Source: Chryseobacterium luquanense (GTDB taxonomy: Bacteria; Bacteroidota; Bacteroidia; Flavobacteriales; Weeksellaceae). From it: a stretch of DNA of 64,000 bases. Positions 52,479 through 63,335 of this stretch are shown one piece after another; position 1 is the first letter of the stretch; each line of letters opens with the position of its first letter. The stretch is taken from the NCBI RefSeq assembly GCF_026460945.1, contig NZ_JAOVZV010000010.1, forward strand, positions 186,001 through 250,000, written 5' to 3'. The notes under the pieces are model-generated. The model was given only the letters and a program-made list of their open reading frames with translations. It was not told the origin of the DNA and did not search any database. The translations under genes were made by a program, and so were the position numbers.

Positions 52479-54137
52479 ATGAATTATTTTTTAACGTACA
52501 CAGTTTATGTTCTCATTTTATCAGTATTGATGGGGATTTCCACTTGGAAGCTGTTTAAGAAATTGGGGTATAGTCCGTTATTTGCATTTATACCTTTCTA
52601 CAATTATTTCATTATACTTAAAGAAACAAAACACCCGAAATGGTGGGCGCTTTTATCATATCTACCGATTGTAGGTCCTATTATGATGAGTGTTTTTCAT
52701 TTGTATTTGGTGAAAAAATTCGGAAAAAATCTTTTCAAAGATCAGTTACTGACTGTGATTTTGCCTTTCATTTACATGGCAACAATCAATTATTCTAAAG
52801 ATACTGAGATTGAAGACGAAAACGATTTATATTTAACAGACGACGAAAAAAACGCCAAAAAGAAAGATACCTTTATGGGATCGATTACTTTTGCGGTAGT
52901 TTTCGCTACAATCATTCACGTTTTTGTAACGCAGCCTTTCGGAATTCCTACCGGATCAATGGAAAGAACTTTATTGGTTGGAGATTTCCTTTTTGTAAAC
53001 AAATGGAGCTACGGTTACAGATTACCAATGCGTCCTGTTGCAATTCCTTTCTTACAGGGAACTATTATGGATACAGGAAAACCTGGAAATCCTAAAGACG
53101 ATCCTAAATCTTATGTTGACGGAATAAAATTACCTTACGAAAGAATTTTCCAATTCAGCAAACCTCAAAAAAATGAAATTGTTGTTTTCAATTATCCACA
53201 AGATTCTGTACACACTGCAATTGACAGAAAAGATCCTTATGTAAAGAGATTGGTTGCTGTGGCAGGTGATACTTTTGAAATGAGAAACGGAAGACTTTTC
53301 GTAAACGGAAAACCGGAAACCGTTTTAGGAGATCAGGAAGTTCAGCACAGATATATTGTTAATACAGGAAGCCAGCTTGATATTCCAAGTTTATACAATA
53401 CTTTTGGATTTTTACCGGTTCAGGAGATTCCAAATGGGAACGGATTTGTTTATGCTTTCCAAGGTCTAACTGATAAAACGGCTGCAGAAATCAAAAAACT
53501 TCCTCAGGTGATTGATATGAAGGAAGATATTCAGCCTAAAGGAGAATCTGCGGTTTCTTACAGAGACGAAGCAAGAACTAAAATTGATACAACACAATCT
53601 ATTTTCCCCATTAATAGTGGATGGAATCAAGATCAATATGGTCCGCTTAAAATTCCTAAAAAAGGAGATGTTGTTGCTCTTAATGAGAAAACTTTACCAG
53701 AATATCAGTGGATTATTTCTAAATATGAAAATAATAAATTAGAAAATAAAAACGGAAAAATTTTCGTCAACGGAAAAGAAACAAATCAATATACAATTCA
53801 GCAGGATTATTATATGATGGTAGGAGACAACAGAGATGCTTCTTTGGATGCAAGATTCTTTGGTTTCGTTCCGGAAGAAAATATTGTTGGAAGACCAATG
53901 TTCACTTGGATGAGTTTAGAGGGTGCATTTAGAGATAATAGTTCGAGTTATCAAGCCAATAAAGGTTGGTTTTTTGGTATGAAAGTTCGTTGGGAAAGAA
54001 TGTTTAAAGCTACAAACACAGGAGAAGCCAACAAAACTTCTTATTGGTGGGTTGCAGCAATGATTTTAATTCTTTTCTTTGGCTGGGAATATTTTGTAAA
54101 ATTATTCGGAAAGAAGAAAAAAGAAGACGAGATTTAA
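52479..54137 (+). CDS. lepB: Signal peptidase I
   Basis: A 552-aa signal peptidase I of the large Bacteroidetes form. Residues 1-105 are a DUF5684-like membrane domain with three helices. A further membrane helix is followed by the catalytic Ser in PTGSMERTLL (about residue 160) and the general-base Lys in VKRLVAVAGD (about 257). A long insert follows, then GDNRDASLDARFFGFV, and a C-terminal membrane helix. It cleaves signal peptides of exported proteins. It is about twice E. coli LepB size because of the N-terminal domain and the insert. Confidence 0.95.
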   Translation: MNYFLTYTVYVLILSVLMGISTWKLFKKLGYSPLFAFIPFYNYFIILKETKHPKWWALLSYLPIVGPIMMSVFHLYLVKKFGKNLFKDQLLTVILPFIYMATINYSKDTEIEDENDLYLTDDEKNAKKKDTFMGSITFAVVFATIIHVFVTQPFGIPTGSMERTLLVGDFLFVNKWSYGYRLPMRPVAIPFLQGTIMDTGKPGNPKDDPKSYVDGIKLPYERIFQFSKPQKNEIVVFNYPQDSVHTAIDRKDPYVKRLVAVAGDTFEMRNGRLFVNGKPETVLGDQEVQHRYIVNTGSQLDIPSLYNTFGFLPVQEIPNGNGFVYAFQGLTDKTAAEIKKLPQVIDMKEDIQPKGESAVSYRDEARTKIDTTQSIFPINSGWNQDQYGPLKIPKKGDVVALNEKTLPEYQWIISKYENNKLENKNGKIFVNGKETNQYTIQQDYYMMVGDNRDASLDARFFGFVPEENIVGRPMFTWMSLEGAFRDNSSSYQANKGWFFGMKVRWERMFKATNTGEANKTSYWWVAAMILILFFGWEYFVKLFGKKKKEDEI

Positions 54138-54157
54138 TCAATAATAAAAAAATAAAT

Positions 54158-54189
54158 AAAATGAAGTATTTGAAAAAGTACTTCATTTT
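54158..54189 (+). terminator. Rho-independent terminator of lepB
   Basis: An 11-bp perfect stem (54158-54168 and 54179-54189), a 10-nt loop, 20 nt past the lepB stop and 13 nt before the WbqC gene. Confidence 0.65.
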
Positions 54190-54202
54190 TCTATAAAGGG
54201 CT

Positions 54203-54817
54203 ATGCAAAATATATTATTACCGGTATTTTATTTACCACCCATTTCATGGTTTTCAGAGTTTTTGAATACTGAAAACGAAGTGATTTTCGAACAGTTTGA
54301 AAGCTTCCCGAAGCAAACCTTTAGAAATCGCACAAATATCTATGGAGCCAATGGTAAACTTTCATTAATTATTCCGATTGTTCATAATGGAAACCGAGAA
54401 TTTAAAAATACCGAAATGTCTTATCGTGAAGACTGGCAAAAAATTCACTGGAAATCTATTAAAACAGTATATCAAGGTTCGCCATATTTTGAATACTATG
54501 AAGACAAATTGGAGAAAATTTTTGAAAAGAAAGAAAAATTTCTGCTGGATTTCAATTTGAAAAGTATAGAAGTCGTTCAAAATATTTTAAAAACAGAAAA
54601 GGCATACTCTTTGAATAAAGAATATTTTAAAAATCCGGAAGAAGTAAATTTCAGAGATAAATTTTCACCAAAAAAGCCTTTAGAATACGAGTTGGAAGAA
54701 TATTATCAAACCTTCTCAGACAAGTTTGGTTTCTTGGAAGATTTATCGATTATTGATCTTATTTGTAACAAAGGTCCGGAATCTCTTACTTATATTAAAA
54801 ATATTAAATGTAAATAA
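54203..54817 (+). CDS. WbqC family protein
   Basis: A 204-aa WbqC-like protein. It has a LPVFYLPPISWFSEFL start, an FPKQTFRNRTNIYGANGKLSLIIPI block, the IHWKSIKTVYQGSPYFEYY motif of the family, and a FLEDLSIIDLICNKG end. The family is linked to sugar or polysaccharide biosynthesis, with no defined reaction. It is usually next to lepB in Flavobacteriia. Confidence 0.85.
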   Translation: MQNILLPVFYLPPISWFSEFLNTENEVIFEQFESFPKQTFRNRTNIYGANGKLSLIIPIVHNGNREFKNTEMSYREDWQKIHWKSIKTVYQGSPYFEYYEDKLEKIFEKKEKFLLDFNLKSIEVVQNILKTEKAYSLNKEYFKNPEEVNFRDKFSPKKPLEYELEEYYQTFSDKFGFLEDLSIIDLICNKGPESLTYIKNIKCK

Positions 54818-54888
54818 TATTAACTCATCGTGAGAAAATAGTTTACGAAACAGGTTGATAAAAAAGCATTTATAAATAAAATGGACAT

Positions 54889-56574
54889 ATGAAAAAGGTA
54901 TTGTTAGCAGCAGTTTTTTTAGCAGGTTTTACTTATTCTTCAGCTCAAGAGACGCCAAAAACTGAGTCGAAAGAAGATAAAGATTTAATGACTTGGTATC
55001 ATAAAGATTTTGCGACTTCAAAAGTGTATGGTGTAAATACAGAAAATGCTTATAAATTTTTAGAATCAAAAGGTTTAAAACCTAAAACTGTAGTTGTAGG
55101 TGTTTTAGACAGTGGTGTTCAGGTTGATCATCCCGGATTAGTTAAAAATATGTGGTCAAATCCTAATGAAGTTCCGAATAACGGTAAAGACGATGACGGA
55201 AACGGTTATGTCGACGACGTTCACGGCTGGAATTTTATTGGTGGTAAAAATGGCGATATCGACATCGACAATATGGAAGTAACTCGAGTTGTCGCTAAAT
55301 ACAAACCTGTTTTCGAAGGTTCTAATTCTACTCAAAACAAAGCAAATCAGGCAAAAATGAAGGAGGAATTTGAGATGTATATGAAGTCGAAGGAACTTTT
55401 TACAAAGAAAAGTGTTGATGCAAGACAAAGTTTCCAACGTTATTCAATGATTAACGAATCGATTCCTGAGATGGTAAAGATTTTGGGAGGAAAACCGTTA
55501 ACAGCTGAAACAGTAAAAAATAAAAAGCCTTCTACTCAGCAAGAAGCTGCTGCACTTGAAATTTTATCAATTATTTTGAATAATCCTGAATATGCAGGAA
55601 AACCAGCGACTGAAGTAGAATCAAAGCTTAAAGAAGAAATGAAAGAAGCTTTAGATCATTTCGGTCCAATGGCAAAGCAATATGATATTAATTATGATCC
55701 GAGAGCGGAAATTGTAGGTGATCACTATGATGATTATTCAGAAAAAATCTATGGAAATAATCATTATGAAGGTCCGGATGCAACTCACGGAACTCACGTT
55801 TCGGGAATTATTGCAGGATCACCTCAAGGTAGCGAAATACAATATGGTGTTGCTTCAAAAGTGGCAAAAATCATGACGGTAAGAACGGTTCCAAACGGTG
55901 ATGAGAGAGATAAAGATGTTGCAAATGCAATAAGATACGCAGTAGATAACGGAGCGAAAGTTTTAAATATGAGCTTTGGAAAACCTGTCTCTCCAGGGAA
56001 AAATGTAGTTTGGGATGCATTTAAATATGCTGAAGATAAAGGAGTTCTTTTGGTGAAAGCTGCCGGAAATGAAAATGAAGATGTTGCAGAGCATTTAGCT
56101 TATCCAACAAATTTTAAAAATATTACAGACGAAGCTCCATTTGTAAATAACGTTATGGTTGTTGGAGCAAGTACCAACAAAAATGATGCATTAAGAGCTG
56201 ATTTCTCAAATTACAATAAGAAAATGGTAAATGTTTTTGCTCCTGGAGATCAAATTTATTCTACTGTTACAAAAGGTAAATATGAATATCTTCAGGGAAC
56301 TTCTATGGCATCACCAGTTGCAGCGGGAGCAGCAGCAGTTTTATTAGCTTATATGCCGAATTTAAAACCTGCTCAGATTATTGAATCTCTAGTGAAAACA
56401 AGTAATTTGAGTTCTTCAAATGAGTTTGGTGAAAAATCTCAGGCAGGAGGTGTAATTGATGTGAAAAAAGCTGCAGAATATGCGTATGCAAATTTCTATG
56501 ACGGAAAATCAAATACAAAAAAAACAAAAACTGTAAAAAAATCAAGACCGGCAAAGAGATCTGTAAAGAAATAG
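54889..56574 (+). CDS. Secreted subtilisin-like serine protease (S8)
   Basis: A 561-aa subtilase. There is a signal peptide (MKKVLLAAVFLAGFTYSSAQ), then the Asp block GVLDSGVQVDHPG (Asp74), a long insertion of ~170 residues, the His block THGTHVSGIIAG (about residue 300), and the Ser block GTSMASPVAAG (about 471). The end is Lys-rich (TKKTKTVKKSRPAKR), with no T9SS domain. The catalytic triad is complete. It is likely a periplasmic or secreted protease. Confidence 0.93.
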   Translation: MKKVLLAAVFLAGFTYSSAQETPKTESKEDKDLMTWYHKDFATSKVYGVNTENAYKFLESKGLKPKTVVVGVLDSGVQVDHPGLVKNMWSNPNEVPNNGKDDDGNGYVDDVHGWNFIGGKNGDIDIDNMEVTRVVAKYKPVFEGSNSTQNKANQAKMKEEFEMYMKSKELFTKKSVDARQSFQRYSMINESIPEMVKILGGKPLTAETVKNKKPSTQQEAAALEILSIILNNPEYAGKPATEVESKLKEEMKEALDHFGPMAKQYDINYDPRAEIVGDHYDDYSEKIYGNNHYEGPDATHGTHVSGIIAGSPQGSEIQYGVASKVAKIMTVRTVPNGDERDKDVANAIRYAVDNGAKVLNMSFGKPVSPGKNVVWDAFKYAEDKGVLLVKAAGNENEDVAEHLAYPTNFKNITDEAPFVNNVMVVGASTNKNDALRADFSNYNKKMVNVFAPGDQIYSTVTKGKYEYLQGTSMASPVAAGAAAVLLAYMPNLKPAQIIESLVKTSNLSSSNEFGEKSQAGGVIDVKKAAEYAYANFYDGKSNTKKTKTVKKSRPAKRSVKK

Positions 56575-56602
56575 TAATCAGATAGATTATCAGTATAAAC
56601 CT

Positions 56603-56627
56603 TAAAGCCTGAGTTTTTCAGGCTTTA
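56603..56627 (+). terminator. Rho-independent terminator of the S8 gene
   Basis: A 10-bp stem (56603-56612 and 56618-56627) with a 5-nt loop and a following T-run, 29 nt after the stop. Confidence 0.8.
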
Positions 56628-56699
56628 TTTTTTTGAAATAAATAAAATTTGGCACGGTTTTTTGTGGTATCTTTAATGTTAAAATAATAAAACTACAAT

Positions 56700-57197
56700 A
56701 TGAAAAAGCTACTACTTGCAGGTATAGTGGGAACCTCACTTTTTGCAGTGTCTTGTTCCACAGTTAATAAAGCAAAAGACGCACAAGCTGTAAGGTCAGA
56801 ATTTCTAAAAATGAAAGGTGACTGGCAAATCGTAAGCATCAATTATGATAAGCAATACAAAATCAAACCTTTTGACGAAGGCGCAGATGCACAATGTTTC
56901 GTCGGAAGTCACTGGAGATTTATTCCTAATAATTACTCAGGATCTTATACATTAAACGGAGGTGGTTCTTGTCCTAAATTAATTCAGGCAATTAAAGTTG
57001 ATATAAAAGGTGATACTTTTACTTTCAAAAAAATTGCAGATGGTACAAAAGCTAAACAAAATACAGCAGGATATACTTTAAACGTAATTAATTCCGATAC
57101 TGATCAGTTTTCTTTAGAACAAAATGTACCATTTGATGGAAATTCTATAAAAGTGGTTTACAACTTCGAAAGAACAGGAATGGATTACACTAGATAA
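56700..57197 (+). CDS. Lipocalin-like lipoprotein
   Basis: A 165-aa lipoprotein with the lipobox Cys at residue 19 (FAVSC). The mature part has the lipocalin-like GDWQIVSINYDKQYKI start and a run of strands, with a Cys pair (QCFVGSHW and GGGSCPK) that could form a disulfide. It is 20 nt from the OmpA gene on the same strand. Confidence 0.75.
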   Translation: MKKLLLAGIVGTSLFAVSCSTVNKAKDAQAVRSEFLKMKGDWQIVSINYDKQYKIKPFDEGADAQCFVGSHWRFIPNNYSGSYTLNGGGSCPKLIQAIKVDIKGDTFTFKKIADGTKAKQNTAGYTLNVINSDTDQFSLEQNVPFDGNSIKVVYNFERTGMDYTR

Positions 57198-57217
57198 TTA
57201 ACTATAAATATTTTAAG

Positions 57218-57907
57218 ATGAAATTTAATAAAACATATATTAGCGCATTCTTTTTATCATCAGCTTTATTATTAACAAGTTGTGAAGCAGTGCAAAATTC
57301 AAATCACCAACAGAGAGGTACTGCGGTAGGAGTTGCTTCAGGGGCTGTAATTGGTGGTGTGTTAGGAAACAATGTGGGGAAAGGTAAGAATGCTGCATTA
57401 GGAGCTGTTTTAGGTGGAATTATCGGTGGTGTTGCAGGTAACGTAATCGGTAATAAAATGGATAAACAGGCAAAAGATATCAAAGAAACTTTACCGGGAG
57501 CAGAAGTTGAAAGAGTAGGTGATGGTATTAAAATCACAATGAATGAAAGTATTGTTACTTTCGCATTTGATTCGTCAGATCTTACTGCATTAGCAAAAAC
57601 TAATCTTGATAAATTAACTAAAGTACTGGTTGATAATCCAGATACAAATATCAACGTTTATGGTCATACAGATAGCAAAGGTGCAGATGATTATAATCAA
57701 AAATTATCTGAAAGAAGAGCAAATTCTGTAAAATCTTACTTAGTTTCTAAAGGAATTGCTTCAAGCAGATTGTTCGCTTTAGGAGAAGGAGAATCTATGC
57801 CGGTTGCGACAAATGATACCGATGCGGGTAGAGCTAAAAACAGAAGAGTAGAGTTTGCAATTACAGCAAACGAAAAAATGATTAATGATGCTCAACAGGG
57901 TCAATAA
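57218..57907 (+). CDS. OmpA-family lipoprotein with glycine zipper
   Basis: A 229-aa lipoprotein with the lipobox Cys at residue 22 (LLLTSC). Residues ~39-85 form a glycine zipper (GAVIGGVLGNNVGKGKNAALGAVLGGIIGG and following). Residues ~112-222 are an OmpA peptidoglycan-binding domain with the NVYGHTDSKGADDYNQKLSERRA motif. It links the outer membrane to peptidoglycan. A terminator follows the stop. Confidence 0.92.
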   Translation: MKFNKTYISAFFLSSALLLTSCEAVQNSNHQQRGTAVGVASGAVIGGVLGNNVGKGKNAALGAVLGGIIGGVAGNVIGNKMDKQAKDIKETLPGAEVERVGDGIKITMNESIVTFAFDSSDLTALAKTNLDKLTKVLVDNPDTNINVYGHTDSKGADDYNQKLSERRANSVKSYLVSKGIASSRLFALGEGESMPVATNDTDAGRAKNRRVEFAITANEKMINDAQQGQ

Positions 57908-57932
57908 TCATTTAACATATAAATATTATTTC

Positions 57933-57957
57933 AAAAAACCGCTTTTAGCGGTTTTTT
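57933..57957 (+). terminator. Rho-independent terminator of the OmpA gene
   Basis: An 11-bp perfect stem (57933-57943 and 57947-57957) with a TTT loop and trailing T-run. Confidence 0.85.
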
Positions 57958-58019
57958 TGTATTTTTATATCTGATTTTATTGTTTGAAAATCACTATTTT
58001 TGCAATCGAAACCACATAA

Positions 58020-58931
58020 ATGAAGAAATATTTAAAACTGCTTCGTGTAGAACAATGGGTTAAGAATCTTTTTGTTTTCGTTCCTCTCTTTTTCTCCGGT
58101 AATATTAAAAATTTAGATTTACTTACTAAAAGTATTTTCGCATTTGTTATATTTTCTTTGGCAGCGGGCGTTGTTTATATTCTAAACGATTATAATGACA
58201 TTGAAGCTGATAGAAAACATCCTGAAAAAAGACGACGCCCATTAGCAAGCGGCGCTATTTCAAAATCTACTGCGATTGGAGTTTTAATCGGATTGGTAAT
58301 TGTCAATATATTGCTAACTCTGTTTGCTCAGTTTTATTTAAATACTCCAATTTGGAAATTTGTCTCAATCATTGTGATTTATTTTCTAATGAATTTGGCT
58401 TATACATTTAAATTAAAGCATGTTCCCATTATTGATATTTTCATTATTGCAATAGGTTTCGTTCTTCGGGTTCAAGCCGGAGGTTATATTACAGGGATTT
58501 TTATTTCGCAATGGGCAACTTTGCTTACTTTCGTTTTAGCATTGGTTTTAGCCATAGGAAAACGTAGAGGAGAATTAATCAATGCACAAATTTCTGGTAA
58601 AACAAGAAAATCTTTAGACGGTTACAATGTACAGTTTGCAGATATTGCACTTTCAATTTCCATCACATTGGCAATTCTTTGTTACTTGATGTTTACACTT
58701 TCTCCGGAAGTTCAGCTTAAATCGCACTCAAGTATATTTTACACAGTAGTTTTTGTAGTATTTGCATTTTTAAGGTATTTGCAACAGACATTGGTGTACA
58801 ACAGAACGGAATCTCCAACAAAGATTTTATACAGAGATCGTTATATTCAGATTACGTTGGTTTTGTGGGTAGTTTCGTTTTTAATTTTAATTTACTTTAA
58901 AGAAAGTATTCATCAATTTAATTTACTGTAA
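58020..58931 (+). CDS. Polyprenyl-phosphate phosphoribosyltransferase (UbiA family)
   Basis: A 303-aa, about nine-helix UbiA-superfamily enzyme predicted to transfer phosphoribose from PRPP to a polyprenyl phosphate. The NDYNDIEADRKHPEKRRRPLASG block has Asp57, Asp60 and Asp64 of the NDxxDxxxD metal motif, and the second DIFIIAIGFVLRVQAGG motif follows. Both resemble mycobacterial Rv3806c (UbiA) from memory. It is followed by DprE1-like, DprE2-like and HAD genes, which supports polyprenyl-phospho-pentose synthesis. A TATTTTTG element lies at 57995-58002. Confidence 0.88.
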   Translation: MKKYLKLLRVEQWVKNLFVFVPLFFSGNIKNLDLLTKSIFAFVIFSLAAGVVYILNDYNDIEADRKHPEKRRRPLASGAISKSTAIGVLIGLVIVNILLTLFAQFYLNTPIWKFVSIIVIYFLMNLAYTFKLKHVPIIDIFIIAIGFVLRVQAGGYITGIFISQWATLLTFVLALVLAIGKRRGELINAQISGKTRKSLDGYNVQFADIALSISITLAILCYLMFTLSPEVQLKSHSSIFYTVVFVVFAFLRYLQQTLVYNRTESPTKILYRDRYIQITLVLWVVSFLILIYFKESIHQFNLL

Positions 58932-58934
58932 ATA

Positions 58935-60251
58935 ATGAAGCCAAATTTCACGCAAAAAGTTACAAACTGGGGCAATTTTCCTATTGTGGAAAAAGAAATG
59001 AAGTCGGAAGACAGCTACAGGAAAATCAAAGAATTTGTACAGAACCATAATGAAGTTATTGCAAGAGGAAACGGAAGATGTTATGGTGATGCTTCTTTAG
59101 GTGAAAGTATTTTTTCGACTAAAAAATTAAATAAATTCATCAGTTTCGACCGATTAAACGGAATTATTGAATGCGAATCCGGAGTTCTTTTGTCGGAAGT
59201 TTTAGAAATTTCAGTTCAGCAGGGATATTTTTTATACGTCACACCGGGAACTAAATTTATTTCCGTCGGTGGTGCAATTGCATCCGATGTTCATGGAAAA
59301 AACCATCATTCTGAAGGTTGTTTTTCAGAATACGTTATTGATTTTAAATTAATGACAGAAAATGGTGAAATTATAACGTGCTCAAGAGAAGAAAATTCCG
59401 AAAAGTTCTTCGCAACAATTGGCGGAATGGGTTTAACAGGAATTATTCTTTCGGCAAGATTTAAGCTAAAAAATATTGAAACCGCATATATTCGTCAGGA
59501 AAGTATTAAAGCTGAAAATTTAGACGAAATATTCCGACTGTTTGAAGAAAGTGAAAGCTGGACTTATACTGTTGCATGGATTGATTGTCTTCAAAAAGGA
59601 AAAAATATCGGACGAAGTATTCTGATGCGAGGTGAACACGCTTTTTCACACGAGCTTCCACAGAAATTTTCTAAAAATCCTTTACGATTAAAAAAGAAAT
59701 TTTCCCCGACAGTTCCTTTTTATTTTCCTGGATTTGTTTTAAATGCATTGACTGTAAAGATTTTTAATTTTTTATATTATAAAAAACAAGCTAAAAAAGA
59801 GCTTAAGAATATCATCGATTACGAAACTTATTTTTATCCGCTTGATGCCATTAATGAATGGAATAGAATCTATGGAAAATCAGGTTTTATACAATATCAA
59901 ATGGTGATTCCGAAAGAAAATGGCAAAGAAGGAATGAAAAAAATCCTTGAAACCATCGCAAACAGTGGAAACGGTTCTTTCCTCGCAGTTTTAAAACTTT
60001 TCGGTAAAGATAATCCGGAAGCTTACAACTCTTTTCCTGTTGAAGGTTATACTTTGGCGCTCGATTTTAAAGTAAATTCAAAATTGAAAAAGTTAGTTTC
60101 ACAATTAGATCAAATTGTGCAGGATTTTGGAGGAAGAGTTTATCTTACGAAAGACAGTATGAGCAAATCTTCGTTGACGGATTACCTGAAAAATGTAGAA
60201 AGTTCAAAATTTGTGTCATTACAGCACAAAAGAATCTTAAATAATAAGTAA
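58935..60251 (+). CDS. DprE1-like FAD-dependent oxidase
   Basis: A 438-aa FAD-binding (PCMH-type) oxidoreductase resembling DprE1, which oxidises the 2'-OH of polyprenylphosphoryl-ribose. The FAD block is RGNGRCYGDASLGES (about residues 37-51), then SVGGAIASDVHGKNHHSEGCFSEYV. The C-terminal VLKLFGKDNPEAYNSFPVEGY segment and GGRVYLTKDSMSKSS (with the catalytic-type Lys) match the family. At the position of the mycobacterial benzothiazinone-target Cys there is Ala375 by my alignment. The gene follows UbiA after 3 nt. Confidence 0.88.
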   Translation: MKPNFTQKVTNWGNFPIVEKEMKSEDSYRKIKEFVQNHNEVIARGNGRCYGDASLGESIFSTKKLNKFISFDRLNGIIECESGVLLSEVLEISVQQGYFLYVTPGTKFISVGGAIASDVHGKNHHSEGCFSEYVIDFKLMTENGEIITCSREENSEKFFATIGGMGLTGIILSARFKLKNIETAYIRQESIKAENLDEIFRLFEESESWTYTVAWIDCLQKGKNIGRSILMRGEHAFSHELPQKFSKNPLRLKKKFSPTVPFYFPGFVLNALTVKIFNFLYYKKQAKKELKNIIDYETYFYPLDAINEWNRIYGKSGFIQYQMVIPKENGKEGMKKILETIANSGNGSFLAVLKLFGKDNPEAYNSFPVEGYTLALDFKVNSKLKKLVSQLDQIVQDFGGRVYLTKDSMSKSSLTDYLKNVESSKFVSLQHKRILNNK

Positions 60252-60977
60252 ATGATAGTTCTCGGAAGTACATCTGAAGTTGCGCAGGCTTTTGTGGAAA
60301 AAGCTTTACAGGAAGGCGAACAATATGAAAGAATTTATCTTTTTACATCAAACAGAGAGGCAACAGAACGTTTTGCACAGCATATTGACGTAAAATTTCT
60401 TCAGCAATCTGAAATTATAGAACTTGATTTGACAAAAGAAATTAATTATTTTAATTTCGATTACATCAATTCAAATCTGTTGTTTTGTGCAACAGGTTAT
60501 TTGGGAGACGGTACTGAAGAAGGTTTGTATGATAATAAAAATACAGAACGAATTATTGATATCAATTACGCAAAACTAGTTCCTGTTATCAATTATTTTG
60601 CTCAGAAATTTGAAGGCAAAAGATCAGGAACAATTATCGGGCTTTCATCGGTTGCAGGAGATCGTGGAAGACAGAGTAATTTTATTTACGGAAGTGCAAA
60701 AGCAGCTTTTACCGCCTATTTAAGCGGGCTACGAAATTATTTATTTGATAAGAAAGTTCATGTTTTAACCGTAAAACCAGGTTTTATGGCTACAAAAATG
60801 ACAGAAGGTTTACCATTAAATCCGAAACTGACAGCAACTCCAAAACAGGCTGCAGAATGTATTTATAAAGCATTTAAAAAACAAAAGAATGTTGCATACG
60901 TTTTACCGATTTGGGGCGTTATTATGTTAGTTATTAGAAATATTCCTGAGTTTATATTTAAAAAATTAAAGCTTTAA
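60252..60977 (+). CDS. DprE2-like SDR reductase
   Basis: A 241-aa short-chain dehydrogenase predicted to reduce the 2'-keto intermediate to the arabinose epimer with NAD(P)H, completing the DprE1/DprE2 epimerisation. It has a VLGSTSEVAQ nucleotide motif, a LSSVAGDRGRQ segment, and YGSAK with the catalytic Tyr-Lys pair. The tail MLVIRNIPEFIFKKLKL resembles the mycobacterial DprE2 tail from memory. The ATG abuts the DprE1-like stop (TAA then ATG). Confidence 0.88.
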   Translation: MIVLGSTSEVAQAFVEKALQEGEQYERIYLFTSNREATERFAQHIDVKFLQQSEIIELDLTKEINYFNFDYINSNLLFCATGYLGDGTEEGLYDNKNTERIIDINYAKLVPVINYFAQKFEGKRSGTIIGLSSVAGDRGRQSNFIYGSAKAAFTAYLSGLRNYLFDKKVHVLTVKPGFMATKMTEGLPLNPKLTATPKQAAECIYKAFKKQKNVAYVLPIWGVIMLVIRNIPEFIFKKLKL

Positions 60978-61085
60978 AAACTGTTGTGTTCATTGCTGAG
61001 TGAAACGCCTTTGCGAACTTAAAAGCATAATAGTTTTAAAAATAACTTTGCGAACTTTGCGTTAAAATAAAAATTAAAAATTAGA

Positions 61086-61673
61086 ATGAAAAAATTGTAT
61101 TGTTTTGATTTTGATGGAACTATCACTTACAAAGACACAATGTTTTTGTATCTTAAATTTTACAATCCTTCAAAATTTCGGGTGCAGTTTTTGAAACATA
61201 TTCCTCTTTTTATTCTTTTAAAATTAAAATTAGCAGAAACTGAAAAAGTCAAAAAAAGCTTTATTGGATCTGTTTTAAAAGGTCAGTTACAGTCTAAAAT
61301 TGAAGAAAAATCTAAACAGTTTTTTGAAGAAAATTATCCTAAAATTGTTAGAGAAAACGCTTTAGATTTTATAAAAAACATCGACAGAGAAAATACACAG
61401 AGTTTAATGGTGACAGCTTCTCTTGATATTTGGACCAAACCTTTTGCCGAAAAATTACAAATGAATTTGGTTTCTACTAAAGCTGAGTTCAAAAATGGGG
61501 TTTTTACAGGCAACTTTATTGGTAAAAACTGCAACGGAAAAGAGAAATTAGAGCGTATTAAAAAAGAAATTTCAGACGATAAGTACGATAAAATCATAGC
61601 ATTCGGTGATACTTCGGGTGATAAGCCGATGCTGAAATGGGCAAATGAAGGTCATTACCAATTTTTTCATTAA
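61086..61673 (+). CDS. HAD-IB family phosphatase
   Basis: A 195-aa HAD-superfamily phosphatase. It has motif I FDFDGTIT (nucleophile Asp8, Asp10), motif II VTASLDI, motif III Lys in GKEKLER, and motif IV FGDTSGDKPML. It follows the DprE-like genes by about 108 nt on the same strand and could remove the 5-phosphate left by the UbiA reaction. This is inference from position. Serine or lipid phosphatases of the same subfamily are alternatives. Confidence 0.8.
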   Translation: MKKLYCFDFDGTITYKDTMFLYLKFYNPSKFRVQFLKHIPLFILLKLKLAETEKVKKSFIGSVLKGQLQSKIEEKSKQFFEENYPKIVRENALDFIKNIDRENTQSLMVTASLDIWTKPFAEKLQMNLVSTKAEFKNGVFTGNFIGKNCNGKEKLERIKKEISDDKYDKIIAFGDTSGDKPMLKWANEGHYQFFH

Positions 61674-61697
61674 TTTTGAGGGATTAATAAAAATAAT

Positions 61698-62156
61698 ATG
61701 AATAAACTGCTGATTTTGTGTTTTGCAATTATCATGAGTTGCACAAGCACAACTGCACAAAAATCTAATGATATGCAGAATAAAAGTGAAATTCTCGCGT
61801 CTGAGTCAAATGGCGGAACCGAGAAAGCAGGTTTTAAAATAATAAAAGATCAAGAACAGTTAAAAAAGGAAATCACAGAAAATTTTGCTTCATCCGGTAT
61901 GGAGCCTGTGATGGATATTCCTGCTTTTCCGAATGATAAGAAAGTCATTTTATACAATTTAGGAAGATTCAATTCAGGAGATCATAAAGTAAAGGAAATT
62001 AAAAGCATTTCTGTAAAAGATAATGTATTGTATGTAGAAGTTCCGATGTATGAGTCGGGCGGAATGGAGATTCAGGTACTTTCAAATCCTTGGTTTGTTT
62101 TTTCAGTTCCTTCCAGTTACAAATTCACTTCAGTACAATTAAATCCGACAAAATAA
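61698..62156 (+). CDS. Lipoprotein of unknown function
   Basis: A 152-aa lipoprotein with the lipobox Cys at residue 15 (AIIMSC). The mature part is mixed, with a Ser-rich linker, a helical KIIKDQEQLKKEITENF stretch and a beta C-terminal part (VPMYESGGMEIQVLS). No family recognised. It is 24 nt from the HAD gene and 3 nt from the cysteine desulfurase. Confidence 0.7.
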   Translation: MNKLLILCFAIIMSCTSTTAQKSNDMQNKSEILASESNGGTEKAGFKIIKDQEQLKKEITENFASSGMEPVMDIPAFPNDKKVILYNLGRFNSGDHKVKEIKSISVKDNVLYVEVPMYESGGMEIQVLSNPWFVFSVPSSYKFTSVQLNPTK

Positions 62157-62159
62157 AAA

Positions 62160-63335
62160 ATGAATAAAATATATTTAGATAACGCTGCTACAACACCGCT
62201 TTTAGAAGAAGTAATTGACGCAATGGTCGATACAATGAAAATGAATTTCGGAAACCCTTCTTCAACTCACAGTTTCGGACAAGAAGCTAAGATTTTGATA
62301 GAAAATGTAAGAAGGCAGGTTGCAGATTATCTACATGTAACTCCGGCTGAGATTATTTTCACATCTTGCGGTACAGAATCCAACAACATGATTATTAAAT
62401 CCAGCGTTGAGCATCTTGGCGTTGAAAGAATCATTAGTTCACCGATGGAGCACAAATGTGTTTCTGAGAGTATTTTGGATATGAAAAACAGAAAAGGTGT
62501 TGAAGTTGCTTACATTCGTCCCAACGAAAAAGGAGATATTGATTTAAATAAATTAGAAGAATTACTTAAAGGTTCCGATAAAAAAACTTTAGTAAGCTTA
62601 ATGCATGCTAATAACGAGATTGGAAATATAGTTGACATTAAAAAAATTGCACAGATTTGTAAAGAAAACAATGCACTTTTCCATTCTGATACCGTTCAGA
62701 CAATGGCGCACATGAATCTTGATTTTTCAGATATTCCTGTAGATTTTGCTTCTTGCAGTGCTCATAAATTTCACGGTCCGAAAGGAATTGGTTTTGCATT
62801 TATTAGAAAATCAAGCGGATTGAAAGGAATTATTACAGGAGGTCCTCAAGAAAGAAGTTTGAGAGCCGGAACTGAAAATGTTGCTGGTATTGCAGGTTTA
62901 GGTAAAGCTTTAGAGCTTTCATTAAATAATATGGAAGCTTATACTCACCATATGCAGGACATTAAACAATATACGATTGATAGAGTGGCTGCAGAAATTC
63001 CAGAAGTTAAATTTAACGGGAGAAGTTCCGAAGCTGATAACAGTTTATATACGGTTGTAAGTCTTTTGCTTCCATACAAAAACCCTTTAATCGGATTGCA
63101 GTTGGATATGAAAGGAATTGCAGTTTCGCAAGGAAGTGCATGTTCATCAGGAGCTTCAAAACCATCTATGGTAATGATGATGGTTTTATCTGAAGATGAA
63201 ATGGATAACGGGACACCTTTAAGAGTATCATTCAGTCACAAAACGACTAAAAATGAGATTGATGCTTTTGTGGATGCTTTAAAAGAAATCTCTAAAGACT
63301 TCGTTATAGAAAATACAAATGTTGAGCATAGATAG
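62160..63335 (+). CDS. Cysteine desulfurase (NifS/IscS family)
   Basis: A 391-aa PLP-dependent desulfurase that takes sulfur from cysteine for Fe-S clusters and thio-cofactors. It opens with MNKIYLDNAATTPLL; the PLP Lys203 lies in SAHKFHGPKG; the catalytic Cys328 lies in the GSACSSG loop, giving the IscS/NifS type rather than SufS. The length is normal. It is 3 nt from the lipoprotein gene and 71 nt from trxA. Confidence 0.95.
   Translation: MNKIYLDNAATTPLLEEVIDAMVDTMKMNFGNPSSTHSFGQEAKILIENVRRQVADYLHVTPAEIIFTSCGTESNNMIIKSSVEHLGVERIISSPMEHKCVSESILDMKNRKGVEVAYIRPNEKGDIDLNKLEELLKGSDKKTLVSLMHANNEIGNIVDIKKIAQICKENNALFHSDTVQTMAHMNLDFSDIPVDFASCSAHKFHGPKGIGFAFIRKSSGLKGIITGGPQERSLRAGTENVAGIAGLGKALELSLNNMEAYTHHMQDIKQYTIDRVAAEIPEVKFNGRSSEADNSLYTVVSLLLPYKNPLIGLQLDMKGIAVSQGSACSSGASKPSMVMMMVLSEDEMDNGTPLRVSFSHKTTKNEIDAFVDALKEISKDFVIENTNVEHR

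Follow-up and report, generated by a model that had tools for sequence, protein, structure and literature searches.

In Citrobacter, a fusion of a HAD phosphatase to a polyprenyl-phosphate phosphoribosyltransferase (PRT) makes a lipid-linked ribose donor, which is transferred in the periplasm by a glycosyltransferase of the GT-C type (Kelly et al. 2024, PMC11127046). According to the same paper, this GT-C accepts two pentoses, gain or loss of an epimerase gene is suggested to change the serotype, and DprE1 and DprE2 homologues occur in candidate arabinofuranose systems; its main text makes no mention of Bacteroidetes or flavobacterial systems, and its supplement may list Bacteroidota. Here we analyze a four-gene cluster at positions 58,020 to 61,673 of a stretch of 64,000 nucleotides (the window) from the 4.35-Mb genome of Chryseobacterium luquanense (contig NZ_JAOVZV010000010.1, positions 186,001 to 250,000). 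We propose, with a probability of roughly 0.76, that the cluster makes a membrane-bound polyprenyl-phosphate-arabinofuranose donor for periplasmic GT-C transferases whose genes lie elsewhere, namely DUF6080 proteins and, in part of the genus, a protein that we call GTa. The four open reading frames (ORFs) lie where a first-pass annotation of the window had placed them, with gaps of 3 and 0 nt and, before the phosphatase gene set downstream, of 108 nt:

58020-58931, + strand: PRT, an Rv3806c-like polyprenyl-phosphate phosphoribosyltransferase of the UbiA superfamily (NF008978, PDB 8j8j, residues of the phosphoribosyl pyrophosphate (PRPP) site)
58935-60251, + strand: DprE1-type FAD oxidase (homologue of NF053785, PDB matches to DprE1, conserved residues)
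60252-60977, + strand: DprE2-type reductase of the short-chain dehydrogenase/reductase (SDR) kind (NF005489, homologue of NF053786; a homologue in 43 of 60 dprE1 neighborhoods)
61086-61673, + strand: HAD-IB phosphatase, predicted 5'-phosphatase of polyprenyl-phosphate-ribose-5-phosphate (TIGR01490; kept beside PRT; fusions in relatives)

The locus appears to fit the three-component scheme for pentofuranoses set out in PMC11127046. As in the Citrobacter youngae O1/O2 systems of that paper, a PRPP-dependent polyprenyl-phosphate phosphoribose synthase is paired with a HAD phosphatase, and epimerization would take place on the lipid, with a GT-C (here predicted) using the lipid-linked pentofuranose. 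The present locus differs from those systems in several ways: PRT and HAD are encoded separately, a DprE1/DprE2 pair takes the place of the epimerase, neither a flippase nor a GT-C was detected in the cluster, with DUF6080 and GTa as the GT-C candidates, and the donor module is close to core across the family. The D-arabinofuranose pilin glycosylation of Pseudomonas aeruginosa (Harvey et al. 2011, via PMC11127046) likewise belongs to a Gram-negative with a PRT homologue; its acceptor is pilin, and we liken it by description and not by sequence. The first-pass annotation had compared the cluster with the mycobacterial decaprenylphosphoryl-arabinose pathway (Rv3806c, Rv3807c, DprE1, DprE2, Rv3789, Emb/Aft). 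This likeness stands insofar as PRT, DprE1 and DprE2 are homologous, with active-site residues conserved in PRT and DprE1; the cluster is, however, no mycobacterial oddity, as Gram-negative lipid-linked pentofuranose systems have been described (PMC11127046). In place of Rv3807c, which is unrelated to HAD (PMC11127046), a HAD phosphatase is found. In contrast to mycobacterial DprE1, the oxidase has Ala at the position of Cys387. To our knowledge, no arabinogalactan is expected in a Gram-negative. The system is thus of a known kind; what is new is its near-core distribution in the family, a 'ribose' version without dprE genes and two proposed partner transferases. Our literature searches listed no report of an arabinofuranose or ribose envelope sugar, or of DprE1, in this Gram-negative family or in Bacteroidetes.

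By sequence comparison, PRT is closest to Rv3806c and not to other UbiA branches; the first-pass annotation had named alignment with another branch as a point that would speak against its proposal, and this did not appear. The top PDB match is 8j8j (Rv3806c, E 5e-42), while UbiA 4od4 reaches merely E 0.16. PRT scores 208 bits against NF008978 (decaprenyl-phosphate phosphoribosyltransferase), just over the cut-off of 207, and 223 bits against NF008977, below the cut-off of 234. The structure paper on Rv3806c names R22, K28, Y70, K87, R90, Y138 and K143 as PRPP-binding residues and also reports Phe at Y157 in some mycobacteria (PMC10994848). Aligned on Rv3806c, the window PRT keeps R22, K28, Y70, N73, D74, D77, D81, K87, R90, Y138 and K143 and has Phe for Y157, and the PRPP-site columns are invariant across 25 aligned Bacteroidota PRTs, save for the K143 equivalent (K133; at least 90%). 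The oxidase matches the DprE1 structures 4aut (E 3e-81) and 21gq (E 4e-78) over nearly its whole length. It keeps the equivalents of H132, K134, Q334, Q336, K367 and K418 of Mycobacterium tuberculosis DprE1, with C387 replaced by Ala and N385 by Thr; we take the roles of H132 and K418 to be those known from that enzyme, with K418 as the catalytic residue. The K418 equivalent is present in all 126 loci with a DprE1 match, several of which repeat one genome. For the reductase, the best model is the SDR family NF005489 (241 bits; cut-off 267 not reached). Although below the curated equivalog cut-offs, both proteins are clear homologues of DprE1 and DprE2 by sequence. The phosphatase exceeds the TIGR01490 (HAD-IB) cut-off of 98.3 with 112 bits. 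The first-pass annotation had it merely follow the other three genes; it is present, but its part is probably larger, since it stays beside PRT where the epimerases are missing and is fused to PRT in relatives, which makes it the likely 5'-phosphatase of the pathway. All four identities agree with the polyprenyl-phospho-arabinose donor predicted in that annotation.

Our proposal draws on homology, active-site conservation, gene order, co-occurrence and the predicted GT-C fold of GTa, from which we infer the reactions and their order, the identity of the lipid, the role of DUF6080 as a transferase, donor specificity, flipping and the acceptor. PRT would join PRPP and polyprenyl phosphate into polyprenyl-phosphate-ribose-5-phosphate, from which HAD would strip the 5'-phosphate to leave polyprenyl-phosphate-ribofuranose. 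DprE1 would then oxidize the 2' position and DprE2 would reduce the 2'-keto sugar to polyprenyl-phosphate-arabinofuranose, the two together inverting C2. The donor would be flipped by a flippase and used by periplasmic GT-C enzymes, with DUF6080 as the core transferase and GTa as an accessory one in part of the genus. PRT and HAD would form a constant core to which epimerases and transferases attach as exchangeable modules; without DprE1 and DprE2, the product would be polyprenyl-phosphate-ribofuranose. No flippase was found among the 11 proteins scanned (52479-63335), the rest of the genome not having been searched, and the scanned cluster proteins gave no match to the Emb/Aft family, with no Emb/Aft-specific search made of the genome. 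A GtrA gene was seen in relatives' loci L111 and L241.

Genome searches found PRT in 132 of 148 genomes of the family of Chryseobacterium and DprE1 in 125, the latter count being 130 matches minus five genomes with merely partial matches (E 2e-6 to 6e-16); in G052, where no PRT was found, a contig begins with the DprE1 gene. Across 392 genomes of the phylum from 178 genera, PRT occurs in 139 (86 genera) and DprE1 in 79 (41 genera), with both present in 78 of the 79 DprE1-positive genomes and PRT alone in 61. The distribution of the module is near-core in the family and patchy across the phylum. The module is also plasmid-borne, since PRT-DprE1-SDR was found on a Flammeovirgaceae plasmid (CP139022.1, locus L244), where the next gene encodes a protein with partial similarity to OmpA/PorE models. 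In other Bacteroidota, a PRT whose PRPP-site residues are the same was also observed in a block of MutL, a methylmalonyl-CoA mutase subunit, PRT, in some cases a small protein, and a GldE-like protein (L203, L206, L210, L212, L219, L220 and L222, the last with no GldE-like gene seen), in which no sugar enzyme is evident; the proteins of L203 were scanned and the other loci assigned by clustering.

We examined 60 regions around DprE1, with the dprE1 ORF obtained in 59 (none in L080). A dprE2 homologue was labeled in 43 and a stand-alone HAD in 18, and in 19 PRT carries an N-terminal extension that matches Pfam HAD in all six cases tested. The window HAD, which itself matches Pfam HAD, resembles these N-terminal domains distantly (best blastp E 3e-6, most not significant; hidden Markov model E of at least 0.009). 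The order OmpA-PRT-dprE1-dprE2-HAD-NifS is found in 8 of the 16 regions from the family of the window, once with an extra ORF, and the same four-gene set is seen again in other Flavobacteriia (e.g. L104, L106 and L108). Since the gene order recurs in relatives, which the first-pass annotation had proposed to check, the cluster is not a product of chance. A DUF212/PAP2-type gene stands beside PRT in two regions (L064 by Pfam, L115 by clustering), and a GtrA gene was identified in two regions with a HAD-PRT fusion, by test in L111 and by clustering in L114.

Eight family genomes, from the genera g18 and g19, have PRT and no DprE1. The seven g18/g19 loci examined (G069 left out) all read OmpA-PRT-HAD-NifS and lack both dprE1 and dprE2; their PRT and HAD ORFs are intact and 15-54 nt apart. 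A comparable pair is found in genus g72 of another family (f4), where one genome has PRT-dprE1-dprE2-HAD (G433, L104) and another has PRT and HAD 18 nt apart (G527, L214). The simplest reading of these sequences is that the PRT-HAD core gives polyprenyl-phosphate-ribofuranose and that DprE1/DprE2 are an optional converter to arabinofuranose, which suggests that two related genera switched to ribose by dropping dprE1 and dprE2. The first-pass annotation had hedged its prediction with 'a related pentose', and ribose is what the relatives without these genes are predicted to use. In a tree of the flanking genes, g18 groups with the dprE-positive g13 and with g15 (ultrafast bootstrap 87), apart from g19, so two separate losses are likely; they are not proven, given that the deeper nodes are weak (40-62).

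The first-pass annotation had found no matching glycosyltransferase in the window and had advised a search for a GT-C elsewhere. Whole-genome searches with PMT_2, GTa and DUF6080 indeed gave no match inside the window, where other transferase families were not searched, and the genome holds two candidates outside it:

G000:C7:274050-275318: DUF6080 protein of 424 residues (PF19558, 222 bits, cut-off 27)
G000:C45:106782-108155: GTa, membrane protein of 458 residues with an ArnT-like predicted fold

Immediately after PRT-HAD, the relative's locus L215 has one DUF6080 homologue (phmmer E 5e-35) and L208 has two, and neither genome has DprE1. Prevotella sp. oral taxon 299 F0039 carries PRT-HAD-GtrA-DUF6080 in this order, and the 19 kb examined there contain neither dprE1 nor dprE2. 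Within the family, 110 of the 133 genomes that have PRT or DprE1 also have DUF6080, among them all eight with PRT only, against none of the 15 with neither (Fisher p 1e-10, relatedness ignored); the count of 110 was 111 before G090 was dropped (E 0.009, stops inside). Among 1414 ORFs from 100 loci, a profile search found DUF6080 only in L208, L215 and the genome's own gene. Sixteen aligned members have D60, H74, P75, N200, K203, D347 and H367 among their invariant residues. DUF6080 (as L060) began as a control for GTa and does not track DprE1, being present in 8 of the 23 genomes without it. The link between DUF6080 and PRT is partly post hoc, as DUF6080 was recognized after that control; the Prevotella neighborhood, found after the hypothesis had been formed, is an independent check on it. 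Plasmids carry DUF6080 genes as well: that of Chryseobacterium sp. LJ668 has a complete copy and another annotated as two pieces, and a Riemerella anatipestifer plasmid also has the gene (L242, L243); no PRT stands among the annotated neighbors. The profile gave no match to viral contigs, and our literature search found no mention of DUF6080.

GTa was modeled on the Chryseobacterium formosus protein, which is 92% identical to that of the genome studied here (predicted local distance difference test 84.8, predicted template modeling score 0.88). The model superposes on ArnT with Z 22.7 (384 residues aligned, root-mean-square deviation 4.3 A), ahead of AftA (18.2), AftD (15.5), AftB (15.0) and EmbB (14.8). 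GTa is thus predicted by its model to have a GT-C fold, and a shared fold does not fix the sugar. Relatives of GTa, counted as all matches with E <= 0.01, are found in 81 of the 148 family genomes and in none of the 23 without DprE1. Of these, 34 score over 100 bits, including two broken by stops (G053, G082) and one split (G129). The association with DprE1 is strong for all 81 (Fisher p 1e-9) and weaker for the best 34 (p 0.002), relatedness again being ignored. In Apibacter (g14; eight genomes sampled), the place of GTa is between dprE1 and dprE2. Three genomes have it whole there (G036, G083, G090); stop codons interrupt it in G053, and G066 has only an N-terminal remnant (L140, L092), which suggests transferase turnover beside a stable donor cluster.

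Large proteins with multiple transmembrane segments were also observed inside dprE clusters (L139 10471-13678, L119 9183-10811, L068 and L107), and Apibacter adventoris has two related copies between dprE2 and HAD; these are candidates for further GT-C families, and those of L119, L068 and L107 have no Pfam match above cut-off. We did not retain the L119 protein (GTb) as AftB-like; it resembles mycobacterial AftB in one motif, a likeness that no PDB or family match supports, and it has matches in 5 of the 148 family genomes, two of them weak. A GT58 protein (L058, G000:C13:26311-27639), a weak PMT_2 match that by eye lies between purine genes, was rejected as a partner; it occurs in 5 of 148 family genomes, twice at E 0.003-0.008 with an internal stop.

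Several observations weigh against an arabinofuranose donor used by DUF6080 and GTa. On the donor side, the oxidase scores 400.5 bits against NF053785 (DprE1; cut-off 500) and the reductase 143.6 against NF053786 (DprE2; cut-off 250). PRT was labeled in just 46 of the 60 dprE1 neighborhoods; in G414 the PRT and DprE1 genes are far apart; and the DprE1-positive exception in the phylum, G302, has a weak PRT-like fragment of 97 residues in the 1.5 kb upstream of dprE1, a contig-end effect being ruled out by the sequence of the locus (L055). The genomes without the system are confined to a few genera, so that counts are not independent, and a surface pentose does not follow from PRT by itself, as many PRT-only genomes carry it in a block without sugar enzymes and it may serve another pathway there. 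Could PRT then be a conventional UbiA prenyltransferase, with a product unrelated to surface sugars? Its superfamily and the recurrence of its homologue beside methylmalonyl-CoA mutase and GldE-like genes in many Bacteroidota would allow this, but the conserved Lys/Arg cluster of the PRPP site (residues as named in PMC10994848) and the best match to Rv3806c, far ahead of UbiA 4od4, make it very improbable. We also consider it improbable, if less so, that the DprE1/DprE2 homologues have a different sugar or lipid as substrate and that the product is not arabinofuranose. The sub-cut-off scores and the absence of the pair where PRT-HAD persists would agree with this, whereas the K418 equivalent is kept throughout the 126 loci, PRT accompanies DprE1 in all but one of the 79 phylum genomes and the four-gene set recurs in other Flavobacteriia.

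The transferase side carries more doubt. DUF6080 is absent from 23 of the 133 system-positive genomes, mostly in g17, g24 and part of g14, and its profile has no match in the 60 dprE1 neighborhoods; the three PRT-linked cases have no DprE nearby, which leaves co-occurrence alone as the link to arabinose. The profile has no sequence match in the PDB and no similarity to GTa (hhalign probability 0.2%), a sub-threshold PMT_2 match being its only other GT-C hint. As for GTa, the other 47 of the 81 matches fall below 100 bits, mostly at 22-30% identity, and include stop-bearing fragments (G087, G123) and the G066 remnant; the genomes closest by DprE1, G100 and G112 among them, also lack GTa. The cluster might thus make the arabinose donor while DUF6080 and GTa use other polyprenyl-phosphate sugars, such as hexoses, and the true arabinofuranosyltransferase is another GT-C. 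Both genes are on contigs other than that of the cluster, 17 of the 133 system-positive genomes have neither, and unclassified multi-transmembrane proteins sit within the cluster elsewhere (L119, L068, L107). Nevertheless, we regard this as less likely, since DUF6080 follows PRT-HAD, directly or past GtrA, in three lineages, and three genomes have GTa inside the operon while two more retain a broken or remnant copy at that place. An arabinofuranose donor serving DUF6080 and, in part, GTa remains the reading that we prefer.

A wider proposal, which we hold only tentatively and at just under even odds, is that DUF6080 is a Bacteroidota family of pentofuranosyl GT-Cs that forms, with PRT-HAD, a widespread envelope-pentosylation system, and that whole genera exchanged arabinofuranose for ribofuranose on losing DprE1/DprE2, probably two or three times in separate lineages, with DUF6080 kept in this family: a donor swap under a promiscuous transferase. 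The analysis also gives DUF6080 a first testable function, and the natural gene-loss pairs could show if GT-C pentosyltransferases can work with more than one pentose, as the Citrobacter enzyme is reported to do (PMC11127046). The equivalent of DprE1 Cys387 (window residue 375) is Ala in 122, Thr in three, Ser in one and Cys in none of the 126 loci. As we take Cys387 to be the covalent target of benzothiazinones in M. tuberculosis, DprE1 is found in many Bacteroidota without the cysteine that these compounds target. For the family itself, the cluster predicts that a lipid-linked arabinofuranose (or ribofuranose), together with a matching envelope sugar, would be present in a common group of Gram-negative bacteria.

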